Source of the DNA: Procambarus clarkii
Taxonomy: Eukaryota > Arthropoda > Malacostraca > Decapoda > Cambaridae
Length of the DNA: 64,000 bases
Assembly: GCF_040958095.1 (NCBI RefSeq)
Contig: NC_091180.1
Coordinates: forward strand, 557,139 to 621,138
Direction: 5' to 3'
Below the pieces are notes generated by a model. That model ran no database searches, was not told the DNA's origin, and saw only the letters and a program-made list of their open reading frames with translations. Shown here one piece after another: positions 22,821 to 58,097 of this stretch. The first letter of the stretch is position 1. Each line of letters begins with the position of its first letter. A program made the position numbers and the translations under genes.

Positions 22821-22837
22821 TCCGGTTCGAAGGACCA
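22821..22837 (-). promoter_or_regulatory. Primer-binding site of BEL-1, tRNA-Tyr type
   Basis: The coding strand reads TGGTCCTTCGAACCGGA, three bases downstream of the 5' LTR. It is complementary to the 3' end of eukaryotic tRNA-Tyr (recalled as ...TCCGGCTCGAAGGA-CCA) at 16 of 17 positions. It would prime minus-strand cDNA synthesis. The tRNA sequence is from memory and should be checked against this species. Confidence 0.7.
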
Positions 22838-22840
22838 TAA

Positions 22841-24682: not shown

Positions 24683-24687
24683 ACCAC
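24683..24687. repeat. Target-site duplication of BEL-1, right copy (ACCAC)
   Basis: ACCAC follows the LTR terminus CCAACA and matches 14232-14236. The array resumes immediately in register. Confidence 0.85.
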
Positions 24688-33900: not shown

Positions 33901-35359
33901 ACAACAACCACCACCACGACTACAACCACATCCAGGAGAAAGACCACCACCAAGACTACACCCACCACTAGGACTACGACCACCACCAGGACTACAACCA
34001 CCACTAGGTATACAGCCACCACTAGGACTAGGACCACCACCAGGATTAAGACCACCACCAGGACTACAACCACCACCAGGACTACAACCCACACCTGGAC
34101 TACAACAACCACCAGGATTAACACCACCGCCACGACTACAACCACCACTAGGACAAAGACCACCGCCTGGACTACAACCTTCACCAGGACTACAACCACC
34201 ACCTGAACTAAGACCTGCACCAGGACTACAACCACCACCAGTACAACAACCACCACCAGGACAACAACCACCATCAAGACTAGGACCACCACCAGGACTA
34301 CAACCACCACCAAGACTACAACCACCGCCAGGACTACAACCACCACCAGGACTACAACAACCACCAGGACTAAGACCTGTACCAGGACTACAACCACCAC
34401 CAGGACTACAACCACCACCAGGACAACAACCACTACCAGGACAGCAACCACCACCAGAACTAAGACCACCACCAGGAATACTACCACAACCTGGACTACA
34501 ACCATCCCCTGGACTACACCCACTACCAGGACTAAGACCACCACTAGGATTACATCCACCACCAGGACTAAGACCACCACCAAGACCACAACCACCACCA
34601 GGACTAAGATAACCACCAGGACTAGGATCACCGCCAGGACTACAACCACCACCAGGACTAGAACCACCATCAGGACTAGGACCACCACCAGGACTACAAC
34701 CACCAGCAGGATTTCAACCAACATCAGGACTATTACCTCAACCAGGATTAAGCAACCACCCGGAGTACAACCCTCACCAGGACAACAACTACAACCAGGA
34801 CAAAGACTACCACCAGGATTACAACCCTTACCAGGATTACAACCATCACTGGGACTACAACCATACCAGGACTACAAACACCACCAGGACTACAACCACC
34901 ATCAAGACTAGGACCACCACCAGGACTACAACCACCACCAAAACTACAACCAGCACCAGGACTACAACCACCACCAGGACTTTAACCACCACCAGGACTA
35001 AGACCACCACCAGGAATACTACCACCACCAAGACTACAACCGTCACCAGGACTAAAACCACCACCAGGACTAGGACCACATCCGGGAATAAGACCACCAC
35101 CAAGACTACAGCAATCACCGGGACTACACCCACCACCAGGACTAAGACCACCACTAGGATTAAAACCACTAACAGGACTAAGACCACCACCAGGACTTCG
35201 ACCTCCACCAGGACTATGACCACCACCAGGACTACAACCACCACCAGAACTACAATCATCACCAGGACTAGGACCTCCACCTGGAATAACACCACCACCA
35301 GGACTTTAACCATCACTAGGACTACAACAACCACCAGGACTACAACAACCACCAGGACT

Positions 35360-36045
35360 ACAACCACCACCAAGTCTACATCCACCACCTGGAATAAGAC
35401 CACCACCACGACTACAACCACCACCAGGACAAAGACTACTACCTGGACTACAACCCTCACCACGACTAGAACCACCACCTAGAATAAGACCACCACCAGG
35501 TCTACAACCACCACTAGGACTAGGACCACCACCAGGACTAACACCACCACCAGGACTACAACCCACACCAGGACTACAACCACCACCAGGACTAAGACCA
35601 CAACCACGACTACAACCACCATCATGACAAAGACCACCCCCTGGACTACAACCCTCACTAGGACTACAACCACCACATGAACTAAGGCCTCCACCAGGAT
35701 TACACCCACCACCAGGACTAAGACCACAACCAGGACTACAGCCACCACCAGGACTACAACCACCAACAGTACTACAACCCTCACAAGGACTACAACCACC
35801 ACCAGGTGTACATCCACCACCTGGAATAAGACCACCACCACCACGACTACAACCACCACCAGGACAAAGACCACTACCTGGACTACAACCCTCACCACGA
35901 CTAGAACCACCACCTAGAATAAGACCACCACCAGGTCTACAACCACCACTAGGACTAGGACCACCACCAGGACTAACACCACCACCAGGACTACAACCCA
36001 CACTAGGACTACAACCACCACCAGGACTAAGACCACCACCACGAC
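35360..36045. repeat. 435-bp tandem duplication in the array
   Basis: A distinctive stretch (CTAGAACCACCACCTAGAAT and its surroundings) at about 35470 recurs at about 35905, a 435-bp offset. The homology covers about 250 bp of each copy. 435 is not a multiple of 18, so the period includes indel-bearing units. Confidence 0.75.
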
Positions 36046-37991
36046 TACAACAACCATCAGGACAAAGACCACCGCCTGTACTACAACCCTCACCAGGACT
36101 ACAACCACCACCTGGACTAAGACCTCCACCAGGACTACACCCACCACCAGGACTAAGACCACCACCAGGACTACGGCCACCACCAGGACTACAACCACCA
36201 ACAGGACTACAACCCTCACAAGGACTAAAACCACCAGCAGGACTAAGACCACAACCTGGACTACAACCACCACCAGGACAACAACCACCATCAAGACTAG
36301 GACCACCACCAGGACTACAACCTCCTCCAGGAGTACAACCACCATCAGGACTATAACCACCAACAGGACTAAGACCACCACCAGGAATACTACCACCACC
36401 AAGACTATAACCATCGTTAGGACTACAACTACCACCAGGACTAGGACCAGAACCAGGAATAAGACCACCACCTGGACTACAACCATCACCTGGACTACAC
36501 CCACCACCAGGAATAAGACCACCACTAGGATTACATCCACCACCAGGACTATAATCACCACCAGGACTAAGATAACCATCAGGACTAAGACCACCACCAG
36601 GACTACAGCCACCACCAGGCCTAGAACCACCATCATGACTAGGACCACCACCAAGACTACAACCACCAGCAGGATTTCAACCAACATCAGGACTATTACC
36701 ACAACCAGGACTAAGACAACCACCCGGAGTACAACCCTCACCAGGAGAACAAACACAACCAGGACAAAGACTACCACCAGGATTACAACCCTTACCAGGA
36801 CTACAACCACCACTAGGACTACAACCACGACCAGCACTACAACCCTTACCAGGACTACAAACACAACTAGGACTACAACCACGACCAGGACTACAACCAC
36901 CATAAGGACTACAACCACCACCAGGAGTTCGACTTGCACCAGGTCTACAACCACCACCAGGACTACAACCACCACCAGAACTAAGAACCCCACCAGGACT
37001 ATGACCACCACCAAGACAACAACTACCACCAGAACTACAATCACCACCAGGACTAGGACCTCCACCAGGAATAACACCACCACCAGGACTTAAACCATCA
37101 CCAGGACTACAACCCTCACCTAGATTACCAGGACTACAACCACCACCTAGAATAAGACCACCACCAGGTCTACAATTACCACTAGGACTAGGGCCACCAC
37201 CAGGACTAACACCATCACCAAGACTACAACCCACACCAGGACTACAACCACCACCACGACTACAACCACCACCAGGACAAAGACCACCTCCTGGACTACA
37301 ACACTCACCAGGACTACAAAAATTATCTGGAATAAAGACCACCACCAGGACTACGACAACCAGCAGGACTAAGACCACCACCAGGACTAGGACCATCAAC
37401 AGGACTACTCCCACCAACAGGACTAAGACCACCACCAGGACTACAACTACCACCAGGACTACAACTACTACAAGGACTAAGACCACCACCAGGACTAAGA
37501 CCACCACCAGGACTAGGACCACCACCAGGACGACGACCACTACTAGGATTATACCCACCAACAGGACTCCACCCACCAACAGGACTAAGACCACCACCAG
37601 GATTACAACCACCACCAGGTTTACAACCCTCACCAGGACTACAACCACCACTTGGACTATGACCAGGACATGGACTAAGACCATTTCCAGGATTACGACA
37701 ATCACCTAGATTACACCCACCACCAGGACTATGAACACCACCACGACTACAACCACCATCACGACTACAACCACCACCAGGACTACGACCTCTACCAGGA
37801 ATTGAAACACAACTAGGTCAAAAACCACCAGTAGGACCACAACCAGGACTAACACCACCACCAGGACTACGACCACCACTCGGACAACAACCCACACCAG
37901 GACTACAACCACCGCCAGGAGTAAGACCACTGCCACGACGACAACTCTCATCAGGACTACAACCACCACCTGGACTAAGACCTACACCAGG

Positions 37992-37996
37992 ACTAC
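37992..37996. repeat. Target-site duplication of BEL-2, left copy (ACTAC)
   Basis: ACTAC lies directly before the left LTR start TGTGGGAT and is repeated at 48192-48196 directly after the right LTR end CCAACA. Confidence 0.85.
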
Positions 37997-39583
37997 TGTG
38001 GGATATTTGGGTTTGATTCTGATTAATTAATAATTAAAGTAGTAAATTAAATTACGAAGGACCACCCGCTTTTAAAGTAAAGAGGGAAACTGAGAATTTC
38101 AGATCATTAGATAAAATTCTAGAGAAAACCAGTGACTATGAATATGACTAGAAAGTATGATCATAAGAATAATTAATGGGCTGTATTATTAAAAACCAAA
38201 CCTCAAACACCTACATTGGGGGGTTATTACTGGAGGTCAGTACGTCCAGGAATCAGTGTGGTTCGTTCACTAATTCTATTAATAAAAATCTAATCCTATA
38301 ATTAATGTTGAATATAATATTATTCATACAAAGAAGAACATGAATATGAGCATAATAATGAGTTACAGTAAATCACACATTATGTTGTACATTCTGAATG
38401 TATCAAATTGCAAAGTTATGAATAAAAGAAATAAGCCTTAGCTGGTAATAGATTCCTTTAGATAACCCTGGCAGTCCTCTTAATCTCCAAGTCTGGTACA
38501 CCGACGAATGACACGGTTAGCATGGAGAAGACAGCATGAGGAATTCGTCTCTCGAGCTGCAAGATAAATGAATACCAGTAGCAATTGATTTAACTACTCA
38601 ATACATATTCAAGATTATTGATATCTACAGATAGAATTCTAATCACCTGTTATTAGGTGTTGTCTTGCCGCGTGACGTGCAATCACCCTGCCATTAATAC
38701 ACTTATAAATGATGCATCAAATAAAAGTACTTAACTGTGGGCACTGTGTAAGTATTAAGATTGCCGTAATTACGTATCCTAAATTCAGGTGAGCTTATCC
38801 TGGATTTGTACGTTTCAAGTTGGCTGATCACGTGTCGTCAGGAACCAAGTCTAGGGGTCCCGTATTTAACACCAGCACTAGTTGAAGATATTATCTGCAA
38901 GGTCGTTCACGCCTCACAGTAGCGGCTTTCATCTGTGGATAGACACACGTGTCCTATTTGCTGGACAATGGCGTCTTTTGTGAGTACGGTAAGCGCAGGT
39001 CTGCCTCTCTTCGGTTCCCCACGTGTACTGAGGATGGCATGACGTCCCTCCTACCCACGCCCAGTCGACGTTCACAACACAAATTATTGGCATGAACATT
39101 AATATTTCTCGCATTCGCGCTTGAAACTCTAAAGACTGGACGGGTTTATTATTTAGAGGAACGAAATATTATTATTTAACTATTTAAGAATAGTAAAGAT
39201 ATAAGGAAGAGGAATTAATGTCTCCCCATAGCATTCATTGATGACGCTACCTCTATCGCGAGGTAAACGTTTTGATTCTAAAGCTCTATTCGGCTTTTAG
39301 TTAGAGAACCATTCGTCTGCAATCAGTTGCCATACAGAATGCTTTAATTATGGAGAATCGTATTTAATTCTCACACAAATTGTATATAATGTGTTTTACT
39401 GTAAAGAAATCTGACGCAATACTGGCGTCAGATGACGTGAGAATTCTAGCCTAATGCACAGATGAATTATTAGTACAGGAGAATTCTACGAGTTGTTAAT
39501 TTTACTTACTACAATATTAATATGGTTAGTAATAAGTAATGAGAATACAACAATGCTGTATTCGATGTTGGAAATATCCAACA
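37997..39583 (-). repeat. BEL-2 3' LTR (left)
   Basis: A 1,587-bp direct repeat of 46607-48191. The coding-strand start is TGTTGGATATTTCCAACA, a one-off form of the BEL-1 palindrome, and the end is CCCACA. It contains the inverted repeat TCTGACGC...GCGTCAGA followed by TGACGTGA at 39410-39440. Confidence 0.93.
39410..39440. promoter_or_regulatory. Conserved LTR inverted repeat with CRE-like TGACGTGA
   Basis: The 8-base arms TCTGACGC and GCGTCAGA are separated by 7 bases and followed by TGACGTGA. The BEL-2 partner LTR has it at 48018-48048. BEL-1 LTRs keep the left arm and TGACGTGA (15682-15712, 24505-24535). TGACGT is the core of CREB/ATF sites. A role in LTR transcription is inference. Confidence 0.35.
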
Positions 39584-39910
39584 TAACTCCGGGGGGGGGG
39601 GGGTTCCCAGGGTCGCAGTGTACTGTGTTGTACTGACCTATCCCGAAGTGATATTAAGATTAATACATTAGTATGTTAGTATGTTAGTACACACATAACG
39701 AACGTCCCGGATTTATCAAGGACTTACAAGAATTTAAGTCTTGTTATTCACATGTCAACTGAAACATGTTGTTTGTAGCCTACACAATATTTATAAATTT
39801 AACTCTCCCAATTTAAACTAACAGACTCTACAGTGATACGATATCTTGGGTCATAGTGACGTGTAATGTTTCGTTACATGATATCACATCATAGTATCAG
39901 TACAGTTTTC
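39584..39910 (-). other. BEL-2 3' non-coding region with 13-base C tract
   Basis: It lies between pol and the 3' LTR. On the coding strand a run of 13 C (G on plus at 39591-39603) followed by GGAGTTA abuts the LTR. This is the place where a polypurine tract would be expected. BEL-1 has C6 there, so the tract length varies. Confidence 0.6.
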
Positions 39911-42900
39911 TTAGTGGGAAAATGAAGGAAATTCTTCTTCTTCAGAGTTATAATAGGCTCGCAAATTCCGTCTACATTGTTGAGCTGCAGCTCTAGTGGG
40001 ACGGTTGCTTGGAGGAACAAATTCATTGTCCTCTGAAATTACTGGGGAAACTGGATCTGACTGATATTCTTGTTCGGTCAATTCTAGGGGAACCAGCTTC
40101 TCTAAAGTTTTTAGAGTAGTGTTGCCTTTGCATAAGACTTTAACCACTCTTAGGACACCTTGTCGATCTGGGTGGATGGTGACGATTTTTCCTATAGGCC
40201 ACTCGGACCTTGGCCCATCACTATCGACTAGTACAAGGTCTCCAGGTTTTAATTGTACCTTATTGTAAGGACTCGAAGCTCCGTAGTGGTATTCTCGTAG
40301 AGCGGTGAGGTATTCTCGAGTCCACACCTCATTCCACCTGTTGATAACTCTAGAAAGATGTTGGTAGCTTTCCACCAAGTCTCCTCTGGTCACATGGGAT
40401 GGGTCTACAGGGTCCTCTTCGGTTAAAGGGATGAGAGGGCTCAGTAGACCTCCATGGATCAAGTGAGATGGGCTCAGTGGTTCTCTCTGGGTGTAATCAT
40501 CAGACAGGTAGGTGATCGGGCGGTTATTGACTCGCGCCTCGATTTCCACAACAATAGTTTGGAGTTCTGAGTAACTGACCTTTTGTCGGTGTAACGTTTT
40601 CCTTAGACATCTTTTGACTGTACATACCATTCGCTCATAGAACCCACCTTACCAAGGGGCTATTGGTGCTATGAATTTCCAGTGACATTGTCTTCTTTGT
40701 AAGACTGATTGCACTTCAGGGTGGTTCCAGACTTCTCGTAGACAACTTTCTCCCGCTACAAAATTAGATCCGTTGTCTGATATCATTAATCTAGGACATG
40801 ATCGACGGGCAGCAAATCTGCGGAAAGCTTGAATGAAAGCTTCAGCACTCATGTCTGGGGTGACCTCTAAGTGCACGCCTCTGGTTGTAGCACAGGTAAA
40901 GAGACAAATGTATGCCTTTACTGGTATATTATCTGGGTTACCAGTGAGGAGTAAGGCTCCTGTATAATCTACTCCAGTTGTTTCGAATGGACGAAGATGA
41001 ACTACTCGCTCTTCTGGGAGGGGAGGAGGTCCTGGGTAAGGACAGACTCTAGCGTCGTATCTCTTACAGATTACACAAGCTTTAATAATGGTCTTAACAG
41101 TCTGACGACCTTGAGGAAGCCAGTACTTTTGTCTAAGATCGGTGAGAGTATTTAAAACTCCACCATGTAGGGTACCATATTGATGGTGATGTAAGACAAA
41201 AAGTTTAGTTATGATGTGGTGGCGAGGTAAAAGGATTGGGTTCTTAGTGTCTAAGTCAATCTTTGCAAGTAGCAAACGTCCTCCACATCGTAGTATGTTA
41301 TGAGTGTTGACATCGTACCAGATGCCCAGAGATTTAGTGAGTTTATCCGGAAGATTCTCAAATTCGCTTCCGTAAGTCTCTTGCTGCGCCCGCTTAATCC
41401 AATAATGAACAGGATTGGGGAATTTGTGTCGTATTCCTATTTTAGAGAGGAAATCAAACACGTGTGCAGTCACTCGTAACAATTTGTTTAAATTAGAATA
41501 ATGATGAGGATTAATGGCTAATGTTCGCTGAGGCTCTGGGTCCTTCATGGGAGTGGTGATATTGGTCACGATGACTTGTGGCTTTTGTTTGGGCCACTGA
41601 CCACCAACAAGCCATGAAGGTCCATTGAACCACAGCGAAGATTTGACAAGTTGTTTTAATGTCAATCCTCTTGACAAATAATCTGCAGGATTGTCCTTAG
41701 TAGGGACATGTCTAAACTTATAACCTGCGGATAAATCATGAATCTCCCTGACGCGATTACTGACGTAAGGGGTTTTGTTGTTGTTGTTTCTTACCCATTG
41801 TAAGACTGCCTCGTTGTCTGACCACACTACAATCTCACCAAAGTGGATATTACTGAGTGTCTTTGCCAGGCAATGGGCTAACCTTACTCCCACTAGCAAT
41901 GCGGTCAACTCCATCTGAGGTAAGGATCTCTTTTTGATGGGAGCAACTCTTGCTTTTGATGTGAGTAAAATTGATTGAGCACTGTTAACTAAATAGGCTA
42001 CTGCGCCATATGCTTTGCCAGAGGCATCGCAAAAAACGTGCAAATTGGTGGGTAAGTTTGGTCCTGAAGCATTACGTGGAAATTTCAAAACACCTAACTG
42101 ATTAAAATCCGTTGAGAGTATTTGCCATTTGGCTTGTAACTCACTTGGTAATGGATCATCCCATCCCATATGTTGTTGCCAGCACTCCTGCATTAGGAGT
42201 TTGCCCCTTATTAATATAGGACTAAGTAGGCCTAAAGGGTCAAATGGTTGACTGACAAATGAGAGCAGTGTTCTCATGGTAAGGGTTGAGTTATCAGTTT
42301 GCACTGACTTGACATTCATTTCGTCAGTGTTGGTGTTCCATTCCACGCCTAGAACCTTTAAGCTACTGGGTACCTGATAATCGGGAAATTCCTTCTCGAT
42401 TAACTGGTTAAGTAGTTTATTATTTGAGGCCCATGACTGTAGAGGCATATTAGCTCCTAACAGTTCACGGTTAGCCTCATGGTAGATTTCTACCAGATCA
42501 GCTTGATCCTTAGTTATCCCCTGGAAATTGTCGACATATAAGTTGTCGCTAATAGTTGCCTTATAAGGGCTGTCTGATTTCCTCAAATGCGTGTCCAATG
42601 TGGCTTGCAAAAGAAACGGTGAGGATGTAGCACCAAATAATACAGAGGCGAACCGATAGGTGATTATTTCACTGTTAGGATCCAGTGGATCCTTGTACCA
42701 GAGGAATTTTGTGTAGTCACGATCCTCCTCCTGCAATCCTACTCGGAGAAAGGCTTTGCTGATGTCAGCAGTGTAGGCAAAAATGCCTGTGCGAAATCGC
42801 AACAATACGTCATGTAGCCTTTGTGTTAGGCTAGGTCCCGTTTGGAGACATTCATTTAGAGACACACTATTAGGCTTTACTTTAGCACTGCAATTAAAGA

Positions 42901-43336
42901 CAATACGAATAGGTGTTGTCAGTGAGTCTTTCACCACAGCATGGTGTGGTAAATAATGACCTGTTTTTCGGTCATCGTGTTCAACAACTTCAATGAACTT
43001 ATTGTTAAGTTGTTGTTGGATAAGTTGGTGATACATGGTTAATTTTTCTGGCTGCTTCTGCAGTCGTGTTAATTGAGACCGCAATTGTGAGGCTGCCATA
43101 AAATAATTCACTGGAAGTTGGGGATGATCTAACTTCCATGGGAGTCTTACCCAGTATTGTTTATTTGAGTAGACAACCGTATCCAGATATTGCTGGTAAG
43201 TCCATGTATCATCAGGACTTGGTTGCTCAGGGATGATGCCTAACGTATCTAGATCCCACAAACGATGTATTGGTGGGTCAGACTCAATGTCCTCGGCTAT
43301 TTCCCTGAAGCGTAGGGGCGACTGCTCTAAGCCTAG
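39911..43336 (-). pseudogene. pol: BEL-2 pol (RT, RNase H, integrase), one nonsense codon
   Basis: A stretch of 1,142 codons in frame after the UGA at 43337-43339. Numbering from that point, RT contains LPHHAVVKD, TADISKAFL, SVLFGATSSPF and the catalytic box YVDN at 267-270, so the second catalytic Asp is Asn. RNase H begins near D437 (FCDAS) and continues with QMELTA, SDNEAVLQW and NPADYLSRG. Integrase has an HHCC finger ending CVICKR, then D790 (GVDYTG), D854 (ISDNG) and E901 (FYERMV). A TAA at 40649-40651 (codon 896) replaces the CAA present in BEL-1, cutting integrase five codons before the catalytic Glu. The neighbouring G in MVGTV is C here. Otherwise intact; the final ATG-led 239 codons are only its tail. 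Confidence 0.93.
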
Positions 43337-43342
43337 TCACGC
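43331..43342 (-). promoter_or_regulatory. In-frame UGA between protease and RT, candidate readthrough site (BEL-2)
   Basis: The coding strand reads GCG-TGA-CTA-GGC, identical to BEL-1 at 19604-19615. The gag-protease and pol frames are the same on both sides. In a copy with 0.6% LTR divergence and no other stop in 670 preceding codons, a conserved stop in UGA-CUA context points to readthrough as the way of setting the Gag:Pol ratio. Confidence 0.65.
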
Positions 43343-45349
43343 CACAATTATATTATTGGTTTGTTGGTTTGTGGGCGCTGGACCTTGTCTGAAAAGCACG
43401 GGTCCTGTGAGCAATTTGCCACCTGCGGACGACAACAAATTCATACCATGTTGTCTAGTGCATCCAGTGATAAACTTGTAGTAATGATCCGCGCCTATTA
43501 ATATTCCAATATCTGTGAGACAATCGGAATTTATTTTATGATCCGCTAGCCTCATGCGGTTTCGCTTAAGGTGTCTCGCTGTGCGAGCTAATCCTGTGAC
43601 CTGCAGGTCCGTAGGAATCTTATCCACTACCACCGCATGGATTGGGCTAGCAGAGGATCCTAGTCTAACTAGTAATTTAACTACCTTGTAGTCACGTGGT
43701 CCACTATTTGATAGGAAACCAGAAATGTTTAACTTCACACTTTTGGTAGGTTTTAAATTTAAATCATCTACCAACTGTTGTGTGATGAAGGTTTTTTGGG
43801 AACCTTGGTCAAAGAGACCTCTACTGTTAATTCTAGATCTTCGATTTATCAATTTAAGCTGAGCAGTAGGCAAGGTAGTACTGTTGCCTGACTCAGTAGC
43901 GAGTACATTCACTTCGTGATGTACTTTACAATATTGCACTGACGTAGAATTAGTAAAATTCTCTCCAGTGGTCATAGTAGGTGTAGGAGATTTCCTACAT
44001 AAGGCGTAGTGGTGTACACCCTGTTTACAACGGTTGCAAGTACGTAGTGGTACTGCACATTTCTTGGGATCATGAGAACCCATACATTTAGTGCATTTGT
44101 GCAATTCCTGTAACCTTTTGACTCTAGCATTATACGTAGGATAAGCAGAGCATTGATAATTGGTGTGTTCCTGATTGCAGAACAGACACTTTCTTTGATT
44201 AATAGACTTAGTCTCTTTAGTAGACAAGTCATGAGTTATCTCTGAAGGAGATACTGAGTAGATACCTACATTTCCACTTCCCTTCTTGTTGGATGGAGTA
44301 GATTTGGATTTATATTTATTAGACTTACTTGGAGTCTGTTTAGGTTTGACTGAAATATCAGTATTAATTGGTTTGGACTCAGGTTTAATTTTGTCATGAG
44401 TCTTTAACCTATTAACTGTGATCCTCAACCCCTCGAAAATCTGATCGAGAGTAAGAAACTCATTATTATAATGTGAGCAGAGCTCTGTCAAGACGTTTCG
44501 AGGTAATTTCCTCTGTAACAATAGCTTGATAGACCATTCAGAACTAGGTATATTAACCTTGGTACCTAAGGCCTTTACTAGAGACTCTACTTCTAGTCTG
44601 AAGCTTTGAAGTGACTCTGGTCTACTGTTTGGTGCATTCAGATCTAGTAATTGATAATAAAGGGTGGCTATACTTAACTCTTTGTTGCAATAGTTCAACT
44701 TCAGGAGTTTTATAGCTTCCTCATAATTACTCTCATTAAGATTAAGGTTATGTATGACCTTTTTAGCCTCTCCTTTGAGAAGACTGAGTAGGTATGAAAA
44801 TTTAGAAACTTTGTCTAGAGACTGTTTCTTATGGATGTGAACTTCAAAGGAAGTCCAAAAATTATCCCAATTTTCTGTATCTAATCCTGAAAAGGTGGGC
44901 AAGTCTAGAGTAGGTAAACGAACCTCAGGTAAGTGATTATTGAAGTGAGACCCAGTGTTGCTGGCATTGGATCCAGACTGTTTGGCTAATTTAGATAGCC
45001 TGAAAATTTTATCATGAGTCTCCTCTTCATATTGGGAGATGTCGTTTACTATTTGACTTACTTCCTCAGGGTCAATTTCTACAGTATTTAGCAGAGCAAG
45101 ATAAGATTGACCTGCAGTTCTGACTTGATCAAATTTCAGATCAGCCAATCTAACTGTTGACTCTAAGTGATAAGAGTCAATGGGATTATCTTTAGTTAAG
45201 TCATCAGCCTTATTGATTAATCTGGTCAAGTGACCTTTAAGGCCAATGTAGGCTCTCCTCAATTGTTCAGGAGTAGCCATGTTGGGCTTAGGTTCAAACT
45301 TCACAGTGTTAGGGTATGTATTACTAATGAAGCTTGGATACTTGTTCAT
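43337..45349 (-). CDS. gag: BEL-2 Gag-protease polyprotein (670 aa)
   Basis: This is the structural and protease part of the element, acting in cytoplasmic virus-like particles. The start is ATG at 45349 (MNKYPSF), also present in BEL-1. Residues 1-165 are largely helical, and residues 165-335 are a capsid-like region. Three CCHC-type knuckles follow: C388-C400 (C-x2-C-x3-H-x4-C), C419-C431 (same spacing) and C438-C451 (C-x2-C-x4-HH-x3-C). A basic Lys/Ser-rich linker at about 335-360 precedes them. The aspartic-protease active site is D514-Q-G-S, and the IGADHYY motif at 618-624 is typical of BEL/Pao. The protein ends at the UGA described above, shortly after the protease. The frame is fully open. 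Confidence 0.93.
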   Translation of the reverse strand: MNKYPSFISNTYPNTVKFEPKPNMATPEQLRRAYIGLKGHLTRLINKADDLTKDNPIDSYHLESTVRLADLKFDQVRTAGQSYLALLNTVEIDPEEVSQIVNDISQYEEETHDKIFRLSKLAKQSGSNASNTGSHFNNHLPEVRLPTLDLPTFSGLDTENWDNFWTSFEVHIHKKQSLDKVSKFSYLLSLLKGEAKKVIHNLNLNESNYEEAIKLLKLNYCNKELSIATLYYQLLDLNAPNSRPESLQSFRLEVESLVKALGTKVNIPSSEWSIKLLLQRKLPRNVLTELCSHYNNEFLTLDQIFEGLRITVNRLKTHDKIKPESKPINTDISVKPKQTPSKSNKYKSKSTPSNKKGSGNVGIYSVSPSEITHDLSTKETKSINQRKCLFCNQEHTNYQCSAYPTYNARVKRLQELHKCTKCMGSHDPKKCAVPLRTCNRCKQGVHHYALCRKSPTPTMTTGENFTNSTSVQYCKVHHEVNVLATESGNSTTLPTAQLKLINRRSRINSRGLFDQGSQKTFITQQLVDDLNLKPTKSVKLNISGFLSNSGPRDYKVVKLLVRLGSSASPIHAVVVDKIPTDLQVTGLARTARHLKRNRMRLADHKINSDCLTDIGILIGADHYYKFITGCTRQHGMNLLSSAGGKLLTGPVLFRQGPAPTNQQTNNIIVA

Positions 45350-45888
45350 TAGTGAACAGGTAACATTAATTGTAGTCTAAATTAAGGTGACTACTTTATG
45401 GTTTACCTCACTTGAGGTTGAATGTACCTACCTACCTAACAACAAATAGCTAGATATTTTGTGTACTGTCTGAACTCCACCATTAGTTCTCGTCCGGTTA
45501 GCTCATCCTTATCACCAACAGAGTTAATGGAGATAATCCAGCAATGCACAAAATAGATACACAAAATAATGCATACAAGAGAAATATTATGGAGATACTC
45601 CAATCAGAGTTATCTCAAAATTTATCCCACCCTGTAGAGGGTCAGCACAATAATGTAATATATACACAACACTGACTAGTTTTAGATCTAGTCATAATAA
45701 TTCCTAAGAACTATAAAATTATTTAGTCTGGGCTTGTACCAAATTCAGCACAGTCTCAGCCTAAATTCTACCTAATAACATGGGTAAAGATTATTGTGGT
45801 GCAATGAGGTAAATATATTTGTGCTGTATTTTTGGGTTTTTGTTTTATAAGAGTGCTCTTGCACACACAGGTGAATAATTATGTACAG
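45350..45888 (-). other. BEL-2 leader between SGNH ORF and gag
   Basis: 539 bp with no open frame of note, homologous to 22023-22526 in BEL-1. It separates the upstream ORF from gag, so gag expression would need internal initiation, reinitiation or splicing. I did not identify convincing splice sites. Confidence 0.5.
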
Positions 45889-46434
45889 TTAAGTTTGGCT
45901 TGCTAGCCACAGCCTTTTGTGATGGTTGATGGTGTTAATTAACTTGTCAACCACATGCAACCTAGATTCCCCTGACAAATGTACACCGTCTCTAGTCAGG
46001 TTCTGTCTGTAAGGTCTGGCTGTAAATTGTATATATGTGGCATCCAATCTCACTCGTTTTTTCAGCCTGAAATTTATGTACTTAGTAGCTCTCAGGTAGT
46101 ATTCCGGAGTTACTCTCCAACGATTATCTTGGCTTGGTTGGCGAGGCTCCACTAATGTGAATACTACTGATTCACTGATGAGCTTGAAAGAAGAAATTAT
46201 GTTTTTGAGGTGTTTGATCACCTCGGCTGGATGACGAGTGGGGTGGATGTCATTGCCACCTAAATATATGATGGTTAGGTGGTGAGGCCACTCTAACGCA
46301 GGTGTTAGGGTGGTGTTATTGTAAAAGTTGTGAACTGTTGCTCCTGGTGACCTAAAGATTCTCACCTCGGTGTGAGGTATAGGTCTAAGTGTTGTGGGTA
46401 ATTGGCTATGACCCACTAAAGCCACTTTATACAT
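45889..46434 (-). CDS. SGNH-hydrolase-like (GDSL esterase type) ORF upstream of gag in BEL-2
   Basis: 181 residues starting at ATG 46434. All blocks of the SGNH/GDSL hydrolase fold are visible: block I VALVGHSQLP with candidate nucleophile S10 (GHS in place of GDS); block III YLGGND with G60 and N61; and block V D149-G-V-H152-L-S, the Asp and His of the catalytic set. The length suits a minimal SGNH domain (about 180-200 aa). No signal peptide is obvious. It lies between the primer-binding site and gag, on the same strand, within the LTRs, so it belongs to the element. BEL-1 has the same start but a 440-bp deletion. Esterase-type domains are known in ORF1 of some LINEs (CR1-like); I do not know of one in BEL/Pao. 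Substrate unknown. Confidence 0.72.
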   Translation of the reverse strand: MYKVALVGHSQLPTTLRPIPHTEVRIFRSPGATVHNFYNNTTLTPALEWPHHLTIIYLGGNDIHPTRHPAEVIKHLKNIISSFKLISESVVFTLVEPRQPSQDNRWRVTPEYYLRATKYINFRLKKRVRLDATYIQFTARPYRQNLTRDGVHLSGESRLHVVDKLINTINHHKRLWLASQT

Positions 46435-46584
46435 GAGGTAAAAGTAGCAATATGTTAGTGTGATCTAGGCTAACTGATGTGTTACAATGTTACTTGACAC
46501 AATTAATTAAATAGTTAGTCTAGCTTCTATCACACAAGGATTAGCTATTAATGGTTAATATTTTAATTATAAATTTAATGCCTA

Positions 46585-46603
46585 TCCGGTTCGAAAAGGA
46601 CCA
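46585..46603 (-). promoter_or_regulatory. Primer-binding site of BEL-2, with 2-base insertion
   Basis: The coding strand is TGGTCCTTTTCGAACCGGA, three bases from the 5' LTR. Compared with BEL-1, two T residues are added in the middle, which splits the match to the tRNA-Tyr 3' end. This may weaken priming in this copy. Confidence 0.65.
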
Positions 46604-46606
46604 TAT

Positions 46607-48191
46607 TGTGGGATATTTGGGTTTGATTCTGATTAATTAATAATTAAAGTAGTAAATTAAATTACGAAGGACCACCCGCTTTTAAAGTAAAGAGGGAAAC
46701 TGAGAATTTCAGATCATTAGATAAAATTCTAGAGAAAACCAGTGACTATGGATATGACTAGAAAGTATGATCATAAGAATAATTAATGGGCTGTATTATT
46801 AAAAACCAAACCTCAAACACCTACATTGGGGGGTTATTACTGGAGGTCAGTACGTCCAGGAATCAGTGTGGTTCGTTCACTAATTCTATTAATAATAATC
46901 TAATCCTATAATTAATGTTGAATATAATATTATTCATACAAAGAAGAACATGAATATGAGCATAATAATGAGTTACAGTAAATCACACATTATGTTGTAC
47001 ATTCTGAATGTATCAAATTGCAAAGTTATGAATAAAAGAAATAAGCCTTAGCTGGTAATAGATTCCTTTAGATAACCCTGGCAGTCCTCTTAATCTCCAA
47101 GTCTGGTACACCGACGAATGACACGGTTAGCATGGAGAAGACAGCATGAGGAATTCGTCTCTCGAGCTGCAAGATAAATGAATACCAGTAGCAATTGATT
47201 TAACTACTCAATACATATTCAAGATTATTGATATCTACAGATAGAATTCTAATCACCTGTTATTAGGTGTTGTCTTGCCGCGTGACGTGCAATCACCCTG
47301 CCATTAATACACTTATAAATGATGCATCAAATAAAAGTACTTAACTGTGGGCACTGTAAGTATTAAAATTGCCGTAATTACGTATCCTAAATTCAGGTGA
47401 GCTTATCCTGGATTTGTACGTTTCAAGTTGGCTGATCACGTGTCGTCAGGAACCAAGTCTAGGGGTCCCTTATTTAACACCAGCACTAGTTGAAGATATT
47501 ATCTGCAAGGTCGTTCACGCCTCACAGTGGCGGCTTTCATCTGTGGATAGACACACGTGTCCTATTTGCTGGTCAATGGCGTCTTTTGTGAGTACGGTAA
47601 GCGCAGGTCTGCCTCTCTTCGGTTCCCCACGTGTACTGAGGATGGCATGGCGTCCCTCCTACCCACGCCCAGTCGACGTTCACAACACAAATTATTGGCA
47701 TGAACATTAATATTTCTCGCATTCGCGCTTGAAACTCTAAAGACTGGACGGGTTTATTATTTAGAGGAACGAAATATTATTATTTAACTATTTAAGAATA
47801 GTAAAGATATAAGGGAGAGGAATTAATGTCTCCCCATAGCATTCATTGATGACGCTACCTCTATCGCGAGGTAAACGTTTTGATTCTAAAGCTCTATTCG
47901 GCTTTTAGTTAGAGAACCATTTGTCTGCAATCAGTTGCCATACAGAATGCTTTAATTATGGAGAATCGTATTTAATTCTCACACAAATTGTATATAATGT
48001 GTTTTACTGTAAAGAAATCTGACGCAATACTGGCGTCAGATGACGTGAGAATTCTAGCCTAATGCACAGATGAATTATTAGTACAGGAGAATTCTACGAG
48101 TTGTTAATTTTACTTACTACAATATTAATATGGTTAGTAATAAGTAATGAGAATACAACAATGCTGTATTCGATGTTGGAAATATCCAACA
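46607..48191 (-). repeat. BEL-2 5' LTR (right)
   Basis: A 1,585-bp LTR, partner of 37997-39583. Differences seen include a 2-bp deletion (CACTGTAAG for CACTGTGTAAG) and about nine substitutions. It contains the TCTGACGC...TGACGTGA motif at 48018-48048. It would hold the element promoter on the minus strand. Confidence 0.93.
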
Positions 48192-48196
48192 ACTAC
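48192..48196. repeat. Target-site duplication of BEL-2, right copy (ACTAC)
   Basis: ACTAC follows CCAACA of the LTR and equals 37992-37996. The joined empty site would read GGACTACACCCACC, a normal array variant. Confidence 0.85.
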
Positions 48197-49373
48197 ACCC
48201 ACCACCAGGACTAAGACCACTTCCAGGTCTACGACCACCACCATGACTACAACCACCACCAGGTCTACGACCACCACCAGGACTACAACCACCACCAGGA
48301 CTACAACCCTCACAAGGAATACAACCACCAGCAGGACTAGGACCACTACTAGTACTACAACAACCACCAGGACAACAACCACCATCAAGAATAGGACCAC
48401 CACTAGGACTACAACCACCACCTGGACTACAACCACCACTAGGACTTCAACCTCACCAGGACTCCACCCACCAACAAGACTTAGACCATCACCAGGATTA
48501 CAACCACCACCGGGACTATAACCATACCAGGACTACAAACACCAATAGAACTACAACCACAATCAAGACTAGGACCACCACAAGGACTACAACTACCAGC
48601 AGGACTAAGACCACCACCAGGACTAAGACCTCCACCAGGACTACAACCACCATAAGGACTACAACCACCACCAGGAGTTCGACTTGCACCAGGTCTACAA
48701 CCACCACCAGGACTACAACCACCACCAGAACTAAGAAACCCACCAGGACTATGACCACCACCAGGACTACAACTACCACCAGAACTACAATCACCAATAG
48801 GACTAGGACCTCCACCAGGAATAACACCACCACCAGGACTTCAACCATCACCAGGACTACAACCCTCACCAGGACTACAACCACCACCTAGAATAAGACC
48901 ACCACCAGGTCTACAATTACCACTAGGACTAGAGCCACCACCAGGACTAACACCACCACCACGACTACAACCCACACCAGGACTACAACCACAACCACGA
49001 CTACAACCACCACCAGGACAAAGACCACCTCCTGGACTACAACACTCACTAGGACTACAACCACCAGCAGGACTAAGACCACCACTAGGACTACAACCAC
49101 CACCAGGACAACAACCACCATCAAGACTAGGACCACCACCAGGACTACAACCACCATTTGGACTACAACCACCACCAGGACTACAACCTCACCAGGATTC
49201 CACCCTCCAACAAGAGTAAGACCATCACCAGGATTACAACCACCACCGGGACTACAACCATACCAGGACTACAAACACCACCACGACTACAACCACAATC
49301 AAGACTAGGACCACCACCAGGACTACAACTACCACCAGGACTACAACCACAACCAGGACTACAACCACCACCA

Positions 49374-50390
49374 GGACTCTAACCACCACCAGGACTAATA
49401 CCACCACCAGCAATACTACTACCACCAAGACTACAACCATCACCAGGACTACAACCACCACCAGGATTAGGACCACCACCAGGAATAAGACCACCACCAG
49501 GACTACAGCAATCACCAGGACTACACCCACCACCAGGAGTAAGACCACCACGAGGATTAAAACCACCAACAGAACTAAGACCACCACCAGGACTTCGACC
49601 TCCACCAGGACTACAACCACCATAAGGAATACTACCACCACCATCACAACAACCACCACCAGGAGTACGACTTCCACCAGGTCTACAACCACCACCAGGA
49701 CTACAACCACGACCCCCACCAGGACTATGACCACCACCAGGACTACAACCACCACCAGAACTACAATCACCACCAGGACTAGGACCTCCACCAGGAATAA
49801 CACCACCACCAGGACTTCAACCATCACCAGGACTACAACCCTCACCAGGACTACAACCACCACCTAGAATAAGACCACCACCAGGTCTACAACCACCACT
49901 AGGACTAACACCACCATCAGGACTAACACCACCACCAGGATTACAACCCACACCAGGACTACAACCACCAGCAGGACTAAGACCACCACTAGGACTACAA
50001 CCACCACCAGGACAAAGACCACCACCTGGACTACAAAACTCACCAGGACTACAACCATCATCTGGAATAAAGACCACCGCCAAAACAACGACCCCCACCA
50101 GGACTAAGACCACCAACAGGGCAAAGACCACAACCACCACCAGGACTCTAACCACCACCAGGACTAATACCACCACCAGCAATACTACTACCACCAAGAC
50201 TACAACCATCACCAGGACTACAACCACCACCAGGATTAGGACCACCACCAGGAATAAGACCACCACCAGGACTACAGCAATCACCAGGACTACACCCACC
50301 ACCAGGAGTAAGACCACCACGAGGATTAAAACCACCAACAGGACTAAGACCACCACCATGACTACGACCTCCACCAGGACTACAACCACC
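49374..50390. repeat. 769-bp tandem duplication in the array
   Basis: The unusual string GGACTCTAACCACCACC at 49374 recurs at 50143. The following variants (GCAATACTACTACC, CTACAGCAATCACC, CCACGAGGATTAAAACC) are repeated in the same order for about 240 bp. Confidence 0.8.
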
Positions 50391-51869
50391 ACCAGGACTA
50401 CAACCACCACCATCACTACAACCACCACCAGGACTACAACCACCACCAGGACTACAACCACCACCAGACCTAAGACCCCCACCAAGACTGTGACCACCAC
50501 CAGGACTACAATCACAACCATGACTAGGACCTCCACCAGAAATAAGACCACCAATAGGACTTCAACCATCACTAGGACTACAACAACCACCAGGACTACA
50601 ACCACCACCAGGTCTACATCCACCACCAGGACTAAGACCACTACAAGGACTACGACCACTACCAGGACTATCCCCACAAATAGGACTCCACCCACCAACA
50701 GGACTAAGACCACCACTAGGATTACAACCACCACCAGGACTACAACACACACCAGGACTACAACCACCATCAGGACTACAACCCTCACCAGGACTGCAAC
50801 CACCACCTGGACTATGTCCACAAAATAGACTAAGACAATCACCAAGACTACACCCATCACCAGGAGTACGACCACCACCAGGAATTACACCATCATTAGG
50901 TCTCCAACCACCACTAGGACTAGGACCAACACCAGGACTACAACCCACACCAGGACTACAACCACCACCAGGACTAAGACCACCGCCAAGACTGCAACCA
51001 CCACCAGAACAAAAACCACCGCCTGGACTACAACCCTCACCAGGAATCCAACCACCACCTGGACTAAGACCTCCACCAGGACTACACCCACCACCTGGAC
51101 TAAGACTAACACCAGGACCACGACCACCACCAAGACTACAACCACCACCAGGATTACAACCCTCACAGGAATACAACCACCACCAGGACCAGGACCACCA
51201 CTAGGACTACAAAAACCACCAGTACTACAACCACCATCAAGATTAGGACCACCACCAGGACTACAACCACCACCAGGACTATAACCACAACCAGGACTAC
51301 AACCTCCACCAAGACAGCAACCACCACCAGCACTAAGACCACCACCAGGAGTACTACCACGACCAAGACTACAAACATCATTAGGACTACAACTACCAAC
51401 AGGAATAGGACCTGCACCAGGAACAAGACCACCACCAGGACTACAAACATCACCTGGATTACACCCACCACCAGGACTAAGTCCACCACTAGGTTTACAA
51501 CCACCACCAGGACTAAGATAACCACCAGGACTAAGACCATCACGAGGACTACAACTACCATCAGGACTACAACCACCATCAGGACTAGGACCACCACCTG
51601 GACTAAAACCACCACCAGGACTACAACCACCACCAGGAATAAGACCACCACAAGGACGCAACACTCACCAGGAATACAAGCACCACCAGGACTAGGACCA
51701 CCACTAGGACAAAACCATCACCAGGACTACAACCACCACCAGGACTCCACCCACCACCTGGAATAAGACCACCACCAGGACTACAGCCATCACCAGGACT
51801 ACACCCACCACCAGGACTAAGACCACCACTAGGATTACGACCTCTACCTGGGCTACAACAACTACCAGG

Positions 51870-51912
51870 AGTACGAGGTTGTCGTACCAGGTTGTCGTCT
51901 ACTAGGACGACA
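51870..51912. repeat. Local orientation switch (small inverted segment) in the array
   Basis: After GGAGTACGA the plus strand shows GGTTGTCGTACCAGG and GGTTGTCGTC, array-like sequence in reverse orientation. It then returns through GGACGACAACC to the normal strand. GGTTGTCGTC and GACGACAACC form a short hairpin. The homologous spots near 53767, 55048 and 59722 have the usual GGAGTACGACCTCCACTAGG. It is the only polarity flip I saw in about 39.7 kb of array. Confidence 0.7.
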
Positions 51913-53218
51913 ACCACCACCAGGACTACAACCACCACAAGGACTAGGACCTCCTCCAGGAATAAGACCACCACCAGGACTGCAACCATCACTATGACTA
52001 CAACCACCAACAGGACAACAATCACCACCAGGTCAACAACCACCACTAGGACCAGGACCACCACCAAGACTAACACCACTACCAGGACTACGAACACCAC
52101 CAGGAATAAAACCAACACCAGGACTACAACCACAACCAGGAGTATGACCACCACCACGACTAGAACCACCACCAGGACAAAGACCACCACCTGGACTACA
52201 ACCCTCACCAGGACTACAACCACCACCTGGAATAAGACCTCCACCAGGATTACGACGACCACCAGAACTAAGGCCACCACAAGGACTAAGACCACCACCA
52301 GGACTACGACCACCAACAGAAGTACTGCCACCACCAGGAATACAACCACCACCAGGACTAAGACCACCACCAGGACTACGACCACTACCAGGACTACGAC
52401 CACCACCAGGACTAAGACCACCACCAGGACTATGACGACCACCAGGACTACTACCACTACCAGGACTAACACCACCACCAGGACTACAACCACCACCAGG
52501 ACTACGACCACCACCAGGACTAGGACCACCACCAAGACTGAGACCACCACCAGGACTACGACCACCACCAGGACTAAGACCACCACTAGGACTGCGAACA
52601 CCACCAGAACTACGACCACCTCCAGGACTAAGACCACCACCAGGACCACGACCCCTAACAGAAGTACTGCCACCACCAGGAATACAACCACCACCAGACC
52701 TACAACCAACACCAGGACAAAGACCACTAGCAGGACAAAGACCGCCAATAGGAATACAACCCTCATGAGGACTATAACCACAACCAGGACTAAGAACACC
52801 ACCAGGACTACAACCATAACCAGGATTACGACCTCTAACTGGACTACAACACTCACAAGGACTACAACGACCACCAGGACTACAACCATCACCAGGACTA
52901 GGACCACCACCAGGACTAAAACCCTCACTAGGACTACAACCACTCTCAGGACTGAGACCACCACCAGGACTACAACCATCACCAGGACTACACCTACCAA
53001 CAGGACTAATACCACCACCAGGACTACAACCACCACCAGGACTACAACCACCACCAGGACTAAGACCACCAACATGACTACAACCACGACCAGCACTACA
53101 ACCACCATCAAGACTAGGACCACCACCAGGACTACAACCGCCACCATGACTACAACCACCACTAGGTCTACAACCATCACCAGGACTACGACCACCATGA
53201 CAACGACCACCACCAGGA

Positions 53219-56200
53219 CTATACAACCACCAGTTCTACAACCACCACTAGGATTACAACCACCACTAGGACTACGACCACCATGACAACGACCACCACT
53301 AGGACTAAGACCACGACCAGGACTACAACCACCACCAGGACTACAACCATCACCAGGACTACACCAACCACCAGGACTAAGACTATTACCAGGACTTCAA
53401 CCACCACCATGACTAAGACCATCACCAGGACTACTACCACCACCAGGAATAAGACCACCACCAGGACTAAAACCCTCACCAGGAATACAAGCACCACCAG
53501 GACTCCACCCACCAATAGAACTAATACCACCACCAGGATTACAACCACCACCGGGACTAGGACTACCACCAGGACTACAACCACTACCAGGACTACAACC
53601 ACCACCAGGACTCCACCCACCACCGGGAATAAGACCACCACCAGAACTACAGCCATCACCAGGACTACACCCACCACCAGGACTAAGACCACCACTAGGA
53701 TTACAACCACTACCAGGACTAAGACCACCACAAGGACTACGAACTCTACCAGGGCTACAACAACTACCAGGAGTACGACCTCCACTAGGTCTACAACCAC
53801 CACCAGGACTAGGACCTCCACCAGGAATAAGACCACCACCAGGACTGCAACCATCACCATGACTACAACCACCAACAGGACAACAATCACCACCAGGCAC
53901 TACAACCACCACTTGGACTAGGACCACCACCAGGACAATGACCACCACCTGGACTACAACCACCACCTGGAATAAGACCACCACCTGGATTACGACCACC
54001 ACCAGGACTAAGGCCACCACCAGGACTAAGACCACAACCAGGACTAAGACCACCACCAGGACTACGACCACTACCAGGACTACGACCACCACCAGGACTA
54101 AAACCACCACCAGTACTATGACGACCACCAGGACTACGACCACTACGAGGACTAAGACCACCACCAGGACTACGACCACCAACAGAAGTACTGCCACCAC
54201 CAGGAATACAACCACCACCATGACTACAACCACCACCAGGTCTACAACCATCACCAGGATTAAAACCACCACCAGGAATACAACCACCACCAGGACTAAG
54301 TCCACCACCTGGACTACGACCACTACCAGGACTGCGACCACCACCAGGACTAAGACCACCACCAGGACTATGACGACCACCAGGACTACGACCACCACCA
54401 GGACTAAGACCACAACCAGGACTAAGACCACCACCAGGACTACGACCACTACCAGGACTACGACCACCACCAGGACTAAAACCACCACCAGTACTATGAC
54501 GACCACCAGGACTACGACCACTACGAGGACTAAGACCACCACCAGGACTACGACCACCAACAGAAGTACTGCCACCACCAGGAATACAACCACCACCATG
54601 ACTACAACCACCACCAGGACTACAACCATCACCAGGACTACACCAACCACCAGGACTAAGACCATTACCAGGACTTCAACCACCACCATGACTAAGACCA
54701 TCACCAGGACTACTACCACCACCAGGAATAAGACCACCACCAGGACTAAAACCCTCACCAGGAATACAAGCACCACCAGGACTCCACCCACCAATAGAAC
54801 TAATACCACCACCAGGATTACAACCACCACCGGGACTAGGACTACCACCAGGACTACAACCACCACCAGGACTACAACCACCACCAGGACTCCACCCACC
54901 ACCGGGAATAAGACCACCACCAGAACTACAGCCATCACCAGGACTACACCCACCACCAGGACTAAGACCACCACTAGGATTACAACCACTACCAGGACTA
55001 AGACCACCACAAGGACTACGAACTCTACCAGGGCTACAACAACTACCAGGAGTACGACCTCCACTAGGTCTACAACCACCACCAGGACTAGGACCTCCAC
55101 CAGGAATAAGACCACCACCAGGACTAGGACCTCCACCAGGAATAAGACCACCACCAGGACTGCAACCATCACCATGACTACAACCACCAACAGGACAACA
55201 ATCACCACCAGGTCTACAACCACCACTTGGACTAGGACCACCACCAGGACAATGACCACCACCTGGACTACAACCCTCACCAGGACTACAACCACCACCT
55301 GGAATAAGACCACCACCAGGATTACGACCACCACCAGGACTAAGGCCACCACCAGGACTAAGACCACAACCAGGACTAAGACCACCACCAGGACTACGAC
55401 CACTACCAGGACTACGACCACCACCAGGACTAAAACCACCACCAGTACTATGACGACCACCAGGACTACGACCACTACGAGGACTAAGACCACCACCAGG
55501 ACTACGACCACCAACAGAAGTACTGCCACCACCAGGAATACAACCACCACTATGACTACAACCACCACCGGGTCTACAACCATCACCAGGATTAAAACCA
55601 CCACCAGGAATACAACCACCACCAGGACTAAGTCCACCACCTGGACTACGACCACTACCAGGACTGCGACCACCACCAGGACTAAGACCACCACCAGGAC
55701 TATGACGACCACCAGGACTACGACCACCACCAGGACTAAGACCACAACCAGGACTAAGACCACCACCAGGACTACGACCACTACCAGGACTACGACCACC
55801 ACCAGGACTAAAACCACCACCAGTACTATGACGACCACCAGGACTACGACCACTACGAGGACTAAAACCACCACCAGGACTACGACCACCAACAGAAGTA
55901 CTGCCACCACCAGGAATACAACCACCACCATGACTACAACCACCACCAGGTCTACAACCATCACCAGGATTAAAACCACCACCAGGAATACAACCACCAC
56001 CAGGACTAAGTCCACCACCAGGACTACGACCACTACCAGGACTGCGACCACCACCAGGACTAAGACCACCACCAGGACTATGACGACCACCAGGACTACG
56101 ACCACTACCAGGAATAAGACCACCACCAGGACTACGACCACCAACAGAATTACTGCCACCACCAGGAATACAACCACCACCATGACTACAACCACCACCA
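53219..56200. repeat. Higher-order repeat block (378 bp and about 1.28-kb periods)
   Basis: The rare word GAAGTACTGCCACC recurs at 54185 and 54563 (378 bp, or 21 units), again near 55518 and 55896, and as GAATTACTGCC near 56150. A larger period of 1,279 bp links 53401 to 54680 (CCACCACCATGACTAAGACC). So at least two nested amplification levels sit on the 18-bp unit. Confidence 0.8.
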
Positions 56201-57799
56201 TGACTACAACCACCACCAGGTCTACAACCATCACCAGGACTGCAACCATCACCATGACTACATCCACCAACAGGACAACAATCACCACCAGGTCTACAAC
56301 CACCTCCAAGACTAAGACCACTACCGGGACTACAATTACCACCAGGAATACAACCACCACCAGGACTAAGACCACCACCAGGGCTACGACCACCACCAGG
56401 ACTACGACTACCACCAGGACTATGACTGCCACCAGGACTACAACCACCACCAGGACTACATCCACCACCAGGACTACACCAACCACGAGGACTACAACTA
56501 CCACCAGGATTAGGACCACCACCATGACTAACACCATCACCAGAACTCCTACCACCACCCCACCACCAGCACTACAACTACCACCAGGACTACAACCACC
56601 ACCATGACTACAACCACCACCAGGACTACAACAACCACCAGGACAAAGACCACCACCAGGACTACAACCACCACCAGGACTACACCTACCACAATGAATA
56701 AGATCCCCACCAGGACTACAACCAAAACCAGGACTACACCCACCACTGGGACTACAACCACCATGACTAAGACCATCACCAAGACTACTACCACCACCAG
56801 GATTACAACCACCACCAGGACTACAACCACCACCAGCACTACAATCAGCATTTGGCCTACAACCACCACAAGGACAATAACCATAACCAGGACTGCAATC
56901 ACCACCAAGACTACAACTACCCCCTAGACTAAGACCATCACCAGGTCTAGAACCACCACCAGGGCTACAACTACTACTAGGACTGCAACAACCACCAGGC
57001 CTGCAACAACCACCAGGACTACAACCACTACCAGGACTAAAACAATCACCAGCACTACAACCACCACCAGGACTACAACCACCATCAGCACAACAACTAC
57101 CACCAGAACTACAACCACCACCAGGACTACAACCACCACCAGGACTAAGACTCCCACCAGGACTAAGTCCACCACCAGGTCTACGACCACCACCAAGACT
57201 ACAACCACCACCACTACTACAACCACCACCAGGACTACAACAACCACCAGGACTAGGACCACCGCCTGGACTAAGACCACCACCAGAATTACAACCACCA
57301 CCAGGACTACAACCACCTCCAGGACTGAGACCAACCCAAGGACTAAGACCTCCACAAGGACTAAGACCACCACCAGGACTAAGACCTCCACCAGGACTAA
57401 GACCACCACCAGGACTAAGACCACCACCAGCACTAGGACCACGACCAGGACTAACACCGTCACCAGGACTACAAACACCACCAGGACTACAACCACCAGG
57501 ACTAGGACCACGACAAAGACCACCACCAGGACTAGGACCACGACAAACACAACCACCAGGACTACAACCACCACCAGGACAACAACCACCACCTGAACTA
57601 CAACCACCACCAGGACTAAGACCACTACCACGACAACAATAACCACCACGACTACAACCACCACCAGGACTAAGACCACCACCAAGACTAGGACCACAAC
57701 AAGGACTACAAACACCTGCAGGACTAAAACCACCACCAGGACTAAGACCACCACTAGGACTACGTCCACCACCAGGACTAAGACCACCACCACGACTAC

Positions 57800-58097
57800 T
57801 GTTGAAAATTTCCAACAGTAATAAACTGCTATTGTATTATAATTAATCCTTATCATTATATACTAACTATAGTAGTTATTAATTCCACTAATGGTAGTGT
57901 CAACATAAATTAAACCATTTCATCTGCGTATTAGTGCTAGAATTCTCATGAAATCGAGTAGCAACATTGCGTCAGATAATGTCCAGTTAGACACGTTTAT
58001 TACCAATGTGTTAGAGAATTGAATGTGATTCTCTAAAATTATCAGTATTCCGTGTAATAATTACATACGGATAATATGACTCCCGATAATCTAAAAG
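57800..58097 (+). mobile_element. Truncated third BEL-type LTR, plus orientation, copy A
   Basis: It starts with TGTTGAAAATTTCCAACA directly after array ending GACTAC. It aligns with the first ~290 bp of the BEL-1/BEL-2 LTR coding strand through shared words: GCTAGAATTCTCA, GCGTCAGAT, and AGAGAATTGAATGTGATTCT against GAATTGAATTCGATTCT. It ends abruptly where the array resumes (near 58098). The rest of the LTR, about 1.3 kb, is missing and there is no second target duplication. It is a distinct LTR subfamily. Confidence 0.82.

Follow-up and report, generated by a model that had tools for sequence, protein, structure and literature searches.

A predicted SGNH hydrolase gene ahead of gag in one BEL/Pao retrotransposon lineage of the red swamp crayfish

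Retrotransposons of the BEL/Pao superfamily normally carry gag and pol. Here we describe an additional open reading frame (ORF) of 181 amino acids at 45889-46434 on the minus strand of a 64,000-nucleotide stretch of the Procambarus clarkii genome (the window; contig NC_091180.1, positions 557,139 to 621,138), within a BEL/Pao element bounded by long terminal repeats (LTRs) that we call element 2. We conclude with high confidence that this ORF is a true gene, belonging to a single BEL/Pao lineage of the red swamp crayfish, and encodes a stand-alone, strongly basic SGNH (GDSL) hydrolase ahead of gag. This confidence covers its position inside the LTRs, the predicted fold, the catalytic residues, the copy number, purifying selection at the protein level and the association with gag. 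The assignment draws on sequence motifs, Pfam, profile relatives, fold, genomic copies and the ratio of replacement to silent substitution rates (dN/dS).

A short SGNH protein between the 5' LTR and gag

The ORF opens with an ATG at 46434, and its stop codon ends at 45889. As the initial annotation of this DNA had proposed, it lies inside the LTRs and on the strand of the element: the 5' LTR occupies 46607-48191 and the 3' LTR 37997-39583, and the target-site duplication ACTAC is found on both flanks (37992-37996 and 48192-48196). On the element strand it is the sole ORF of at least 90 amino acids between the 5' LTR and gag, and by its coordinates its frame differs from that of gag. The BEL/Pao identity given to the element was borne out by a Peptidase_A17 match at E=3.6e-44.

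The full set of SGNH blocks had been read from the ORF, with Ser10, Gly60, Asn61, Asp149 and His152 as the key residues, and all but one of these assignments stand. The motifs are G8-H9-S10, L58-G59-G60-N61-D62 and D149-G-V-H152. The catalytic serine of block I (GxS, S10) and the oxyanion-hole residues, the glycine of block II and the asparagine of block III (N61), are each present in all 28 members of the family described below; the block II glycine, however, is not G60, which is replaced by serine in seven of the 28, but G31, within FRSPGA. The Asp-x-x-His of block V is formed by D149 and H152, which are kept in 23 and 25, respectively, of the 26 members that have residues at those columns.

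Pfam matched the ORF to Lipase_GDSL_2 (E=1.8e-4), and NCBIfam gave no name for it. The initial search returned a single relative at 39% identity, and a profile built from the two collected 27 relatives (P0001-P0027, the first one included), the weakest at E=6e-13. With the window ORF these make up a family whose 28 members all match Lipase_GDSL_2 at E<=1 (best 9e-12) and which typically begins M-[FY]-K-V-A-L-V-G-H-S. In a tree of the family, which leaves out P0018, P0020 and P0021 as fragments or shifted sequences, the window ORF has no well-supported sister. A prokaryotic or viral origin of the close relatives was rejected, scans of viral contigs and prokaryote genomes having given no confirmed relative; a scan with pol likewise returned none. 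With P0026 and P0003 as queries for other SGNH clades, the best 150 matches listed for each were 24-30% and 41-45% identical to the query. Twelve loci read from the P0026 matches proved 86-98% identical to the window ORF, and from their even scores we take the remaining matches of both queries to belong to the same family; no second SGNH family of this kind appears among the matches listed, which the family of the window ORF floods.

The predicted structure (predicted local distance difference test score 92.9) has the three-layer SGNH fold from residue 1. TesA heads the Foldseek list and many other SGNH hydrolases match, so the class assigned from motifs agrees with the predicted fold. The protein is very basic (predicted isoelectric point 10.3) and contains no strongly hydrophobic segment; because of these properties and a fold that starts at the first residue, it is probably soluble and cytosolic, or at least intracellular. 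So basic a protein might instead be a non-catalytic member of the fold kept for binding RNA or membranes. The Oskar protein binds RNA. It is also an SGNH protein without catalytic function (PMC3905857). However, few columns of the family are as strongly conserved as those of the catalytic residues, and we consider a purely binding role quite unlikely.

The ORF might also descend from the esterase of a long interspersed nuclear element (LINE) of the CR1, L2 or RTEX type through exchange between retroelements. The ORF1 esterase of ZfL2-1 (PDB 4c1b), the one LINE esterase compared with the family profile, is its best natural PDB sequence match (E=0.0016), and G31 and N61 of the window ORF align with its G165 and N195; its lead over the next natural match, 2hsj (E=0.0051), is nevertheless small. 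Moreover, all 28 members have F, W, Y or V at the position equivalent to the LINE-specific His191 (Y57 in the window ORF). Given the absence of this histidine, descent from a LINE esterase is not supported and appears unlikely.

Genomic copies, selection and the association with gag

The ORF is by no means confined to the two copies in the window. The best 150 of 5,326 first-look candidates in the genome were scored, a choice that biases the share of intact ORFs upward: all 150 matches span residues 1-181 at 96-100% identity, and 148 are without a stop codon. The copy number is thus high. The second BEL/Pao element of the window (element 1, 14237-24682) had been said to keep the start of the ORF, and it does so for about 38 codons (22547-22669, minus strand), the remainder being deleted.

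Gag lies downstream in 19 of the 20 SGNH loci that were read, and at L003, L005 and L020 the first part of this gag is only 37-38% alike. In L003/L021 and L005/L022 identity to the window element reaches 98% in the SGNH ORF and 95-98% in pol but only 38% over the first 250 gag residues; the gag N-terminus seems, from these comparisons, to have been exchanged between elements. At L011 (the same place as L024) LTRs surround a broken SGNH ORF without gag or pol. The compact derivative at L024:5483-8011 (plus strand of the locus) consists of a decayed SGNH ORF, without gag or pol, between a pair of LTRs that are about 660 nt long and 97.3% identical.

Seen from the side of gag, 78 of 150 listed loci have a listed SGNH match 529-612 nt upstream (median 547), a count that is a lower bound and a range in which some values are lengthened by SGNH matches ending short of the stop. 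Conversely, at least 68 of the best 150 SGNH places have a listed gag downstream. The pairing used these best 150 places together with 28 of the 150 P0026 matches, picked by eye. In 11 copies the spacing, measured like the range above from the last sense codon and so including the stop, is 536-560 nt. Of the 72 gag loci left unmatched, eight, drawn non-randomly from the first 15, were read, and SGNH sequence was found in all eight: uninterrupted in three, split by frame breaks in three and without its 5' part in two.

The P0035/P0037 gag group is different. None of its 17 distinct elements (18 loci, about 1.1-1.8 kb upstream of gag) gave an SGNH match, at thresholds of E<=0.1 for L027 and L038 and E<=0.05 for L062-L071; at the E<=1 used for L056-L061 there were eight matches of 14-32 residues, the best with E 0.08, and about half of the upstream stretch of L057 is a tandem repeat. 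A further 28 loci of this type also lacked an SGNH match, which carries little weight as only about 650 nt upstream of gag were covered. Since the ORF is present near gag in the one group and in none of the 17 elements of the other, it is the mark of one BEL lineage and not a property of crayfish BEL elements as a whole.

Comparison of 19 SGNH copies (leaving out L011, whose frame is broken) gave 84 of 171 pairs, not independent of one another, with dS>0.15, among which dN/dS has a median of 0.10 and a maximum of 0.20. In the most distant pairs dS is near 1 and dN about 0.05-0.06. Distant copies are therefore under purifying selection, and this constraint is stronger than in the N-terminus of gag: in 11 copies the median dN/dS is 0.10 for SGNH (24 pairs) and 0.21 for the first 250 gag residues (26 pairs), L003, L005, L006, L008, L010, L012, L013 and L020 being left out because of another gag type or a gapped match. 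Between elements 1 and 2, the 38 shared codons differ by 1, 1 and 7 changes at codon positions 1, 2 and 3 (Fisher p=0.006). An SGNH gene captured once and carried as a passenger without use would account for the loss or breakage of the ORF in element 1, L024, L073-L075, L078 and L079, but is hard to reconcile with a median dN/dS of 0.10 among pairs of copies whose dS lies between 0.15 and about 1, or with a constraint exceeding that on the gag N-terminus, and we regard it as very improbable indeed. A chance ORF was rejected on the Pfam match, the profile relatives, the genomic copies and dN/dS.

Several points weigh against a conserved and functional gene. The Lipase_GDSL_2 score of the window ORF is 22.5 bits, under the Pfam curated cut-off of 32.9 bits. 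Intact copies are over-represented among the 150 that were scored, these being the best candidates. Element 1 and L024 carry a broken ORF, so not every element copy needs it in cis, and it is broken or truncated in five of the eight unmatched gag loci that were read (L073-L075, L078, L079). L001 differs from L017 by one silent and seven replacement changes, and from L019 by two silent and six replacement changes. The association with gag is known from P. clarkii alone, not from the genomes of the 27 relatives, and the membrane role considered below rests on analogy. A ratio that is not low at very small distances is, however, expected for copies decaying after insertion. Because distant pairs are constrained and near-identical copies are not, we conclude that the enzyme is selected in lineages that keep spreading and not in every single copy.

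The element and its surroundings

All parts of element 2 are read from the minus strand. The leader (46435-46606) has the primer-binding site directly after the LTR and contains the start of a 9-codon upstream ORF. A spacer of 539 nt with six ATGs (45350-45888) separates the SGNH stop from the gag ATG. Gag (43337-45349; DUF1759, with a protease-like C-terminus, DUF1758) is 90% identical to a P. clarkii protein and ends with TGA followed by CTAG. Pol (40649-43261), whose listed start is TTG and whose frame is open from the gag TGA onward, matches reverse transcriptase, Peptidase_A17, RNase H-like and integrase domains, and an in-frame TAA in this copy cuts off the C-terminal part of the integrase (DUF5641, 39911-40630). 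The Pfam domains stand in the expected order (DUF1759, DUF1758, RVT_1, Peptidase_A17, integrase, DUF5641); Peptidase_A17, Integrase_H2C2, DUF1759 and DUF5641 score above the Pfam cut-off and RVT_1, rve and RVT_3 below it. The Pao-type pol with reverse transcriptase, RNase H and integrase, the DUF1759 gag, the LTRs and the 5-bp target duplication are features of the Belpaoviridae. The stretches of the two LTRs that were compared are 99.07% identical over 1,506 columns; judged by this identity, the insertion is recent.

The primer-binding site (46586-46603, and 22822-22837 in element 1) reads TGGTCCTTCGAACCGG in element 1 and L024, and element 2 has two extra bases. We take it to resemble the 3' end of tRNA-Tyr. 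The family profile of the International Committee on Taxonomy of Viruses names tRNA-Arg or tRNA-Gly as the BEL/Pao primer (PMC8742986). Immediately ahead of the 3' LTR, at the expected site of a polypurine tract, the element strand has 13 consecutive C (39591-39603). Gag and pol share one frame, split by the TGA and CTAG (43333-43339 in element 2). This junction is at the same place in five of six copies examined, including element 1, L021, L023 and L025; L022 is the exception, its gag match ending sooner and the stretch displayed there lying in another frame. The P. clarkii gag protein P0028 also ends at the junction. UGA-CUAG is a known read-through context, and Gag-Pol may for this reason be made by stop-codon read-through.

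Both BEL/Pao elements are inserted in an 18-bp tandem array (3025-14226, 24680-37996 and 48192-63996) with about 2,200 copies in the window. The reading frames of the array yield very long ORFs of low complexity, which are unlikely to be genes. Rfam gave no match at gathering score within the window.

Possible roles and comparison with known retroelements

How might such an enzyme serve the element? Element RNA would be made from the 5' LTR. As the first long ORF after the LTR, the SGNH ORF would be translated early or from a message of its own, and gag translation would then need reinitiation, splicing or internal entry past the six ATGs of the spacer. The enzyme is predicted to cleave ester or thioester bonds; its basic surface could draw it to acidic membranes, where altering lipids or removing acyl groups may let Gag particles form, move or mature. 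This action on membrane lipids or acyl groups is our first choice, held tentatively and as something a little short of probable; the initial annotation had likewise raised, as speculation, an effect on lipids or membranes while particles form or exit. Its best-studied parallel is the zebrafish ZfL2-1 esterase, which hydrolyses p-nitrophenyl acetate and binds to acidic phospholipids (PMC3905857). Our second choice, which we rate as distinctly less probable, is that the substrates of the enzyme are host proteins and not lipids. As a deacylase or thioesterase it would weaken a host defence, or alter the acylation state of Gag or of host factors. TesA, the structure at the head of the Foldseek list, is an acyl-CoA thioesterase. 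Retroviral accessory genes are often early, small and separate from gag, as this ORF is. However, promiscuity is common among SGNH enzymes, which makes the nearest structure a poor guide, and our analysis identified no target for a deacylase. A more far-reaching proposal, to which we would give a low probability, is that these short SGNH enzymes constitute an animal family of their own, which BEL/Pao elements of many invertebrates share and exchange as a module. The enzyme would be the first product translated from the element RNA, and a particle without an envelope would depend on it for a membrane step in its formation or its passage from cell to cell. If so, the 27 relatives would be other BEL elements.

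The initial annotation had suggested that capture of an SGNH enzyme by an LTR element would be new. This is only partly so. In LTR retrotransposons of the Vesta clade of bdelloid rotifers, ORF3 is a GDSL/SGNH protein with intact invariant residues and, like the crayfish protein, without a transmembrane segment or coiled coil; its authors report no significant departure from neutrality (PMC5408684). There too an SGNH hydrolase ORF has been captured by an LTR retrotransposon, but as a third ORF beyond gag and pol of rotifer-specific retrovirus-like elements, whereas the crayfish ORF precedes gag in a BEL/Pao element and has a dN/dS of about 0.1. GDSL/SGNH ORFs also occur in Penelope-like elements (PMC5408684, PMC6431247). 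ORF1 of CR1/L2 and RTEX LINEs carries an esterase (ZfL2-1, PDB 4c1b; PMC3905857) that resembles the crayfish protein in its SGNH fold, catalytic set, position upstream of pol and positive charge. In LINEs, however, it forms one domain of an ORF1 protein that has a coiled coil, and the crayfish protein stands alone and lacks the transposon-specific His191. Amphibian Ngaro-like elements share with the crayfish element a separate SGNH ORF (PMC9210276), which there follows the recombinase of a tyrosine-recombinase element; the crayfish element is bounded by LTRs, and its BEL pol includes an integrase. With the Belpaoviridae it has in common LTRs, gag, and pol with protease, reverse transcriptase, RNase H and integrase, and differs by the added hydrolase gene: the family profile lists gag, pol and env only and mentions no hydrolase gene (PMC8742986), and a word search of a BEL/Pao survey finds neither esterase nor hydrolase (PMC3118150). 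We found no earlier report of an SGNH, GDSL or esterase ORF in BEL/Pao in the PMC literature (titles and abstract openings; Repbase Reports and subscription journals lie outside it). What is new here is therefore the host superfamily, BEL/Pao, and the place, ahead of gag, for a known type of captured enzyme.

SGNH esterases have thus been reported in LINEs, Penelope-like elements, Ngaro and bdelloid LTR elements, and now in BEL/Pao. Their repeated capture across such different retroelements suggests a common need of very different replication machines, perhaps at membranes. For the study of such a need the crayfish offers many copies with an intact ORF, a measurable constraint and, in BEL elements of another gag group without the ORF, a natural control in the same genome, which makes the contribution of the esterase testable.
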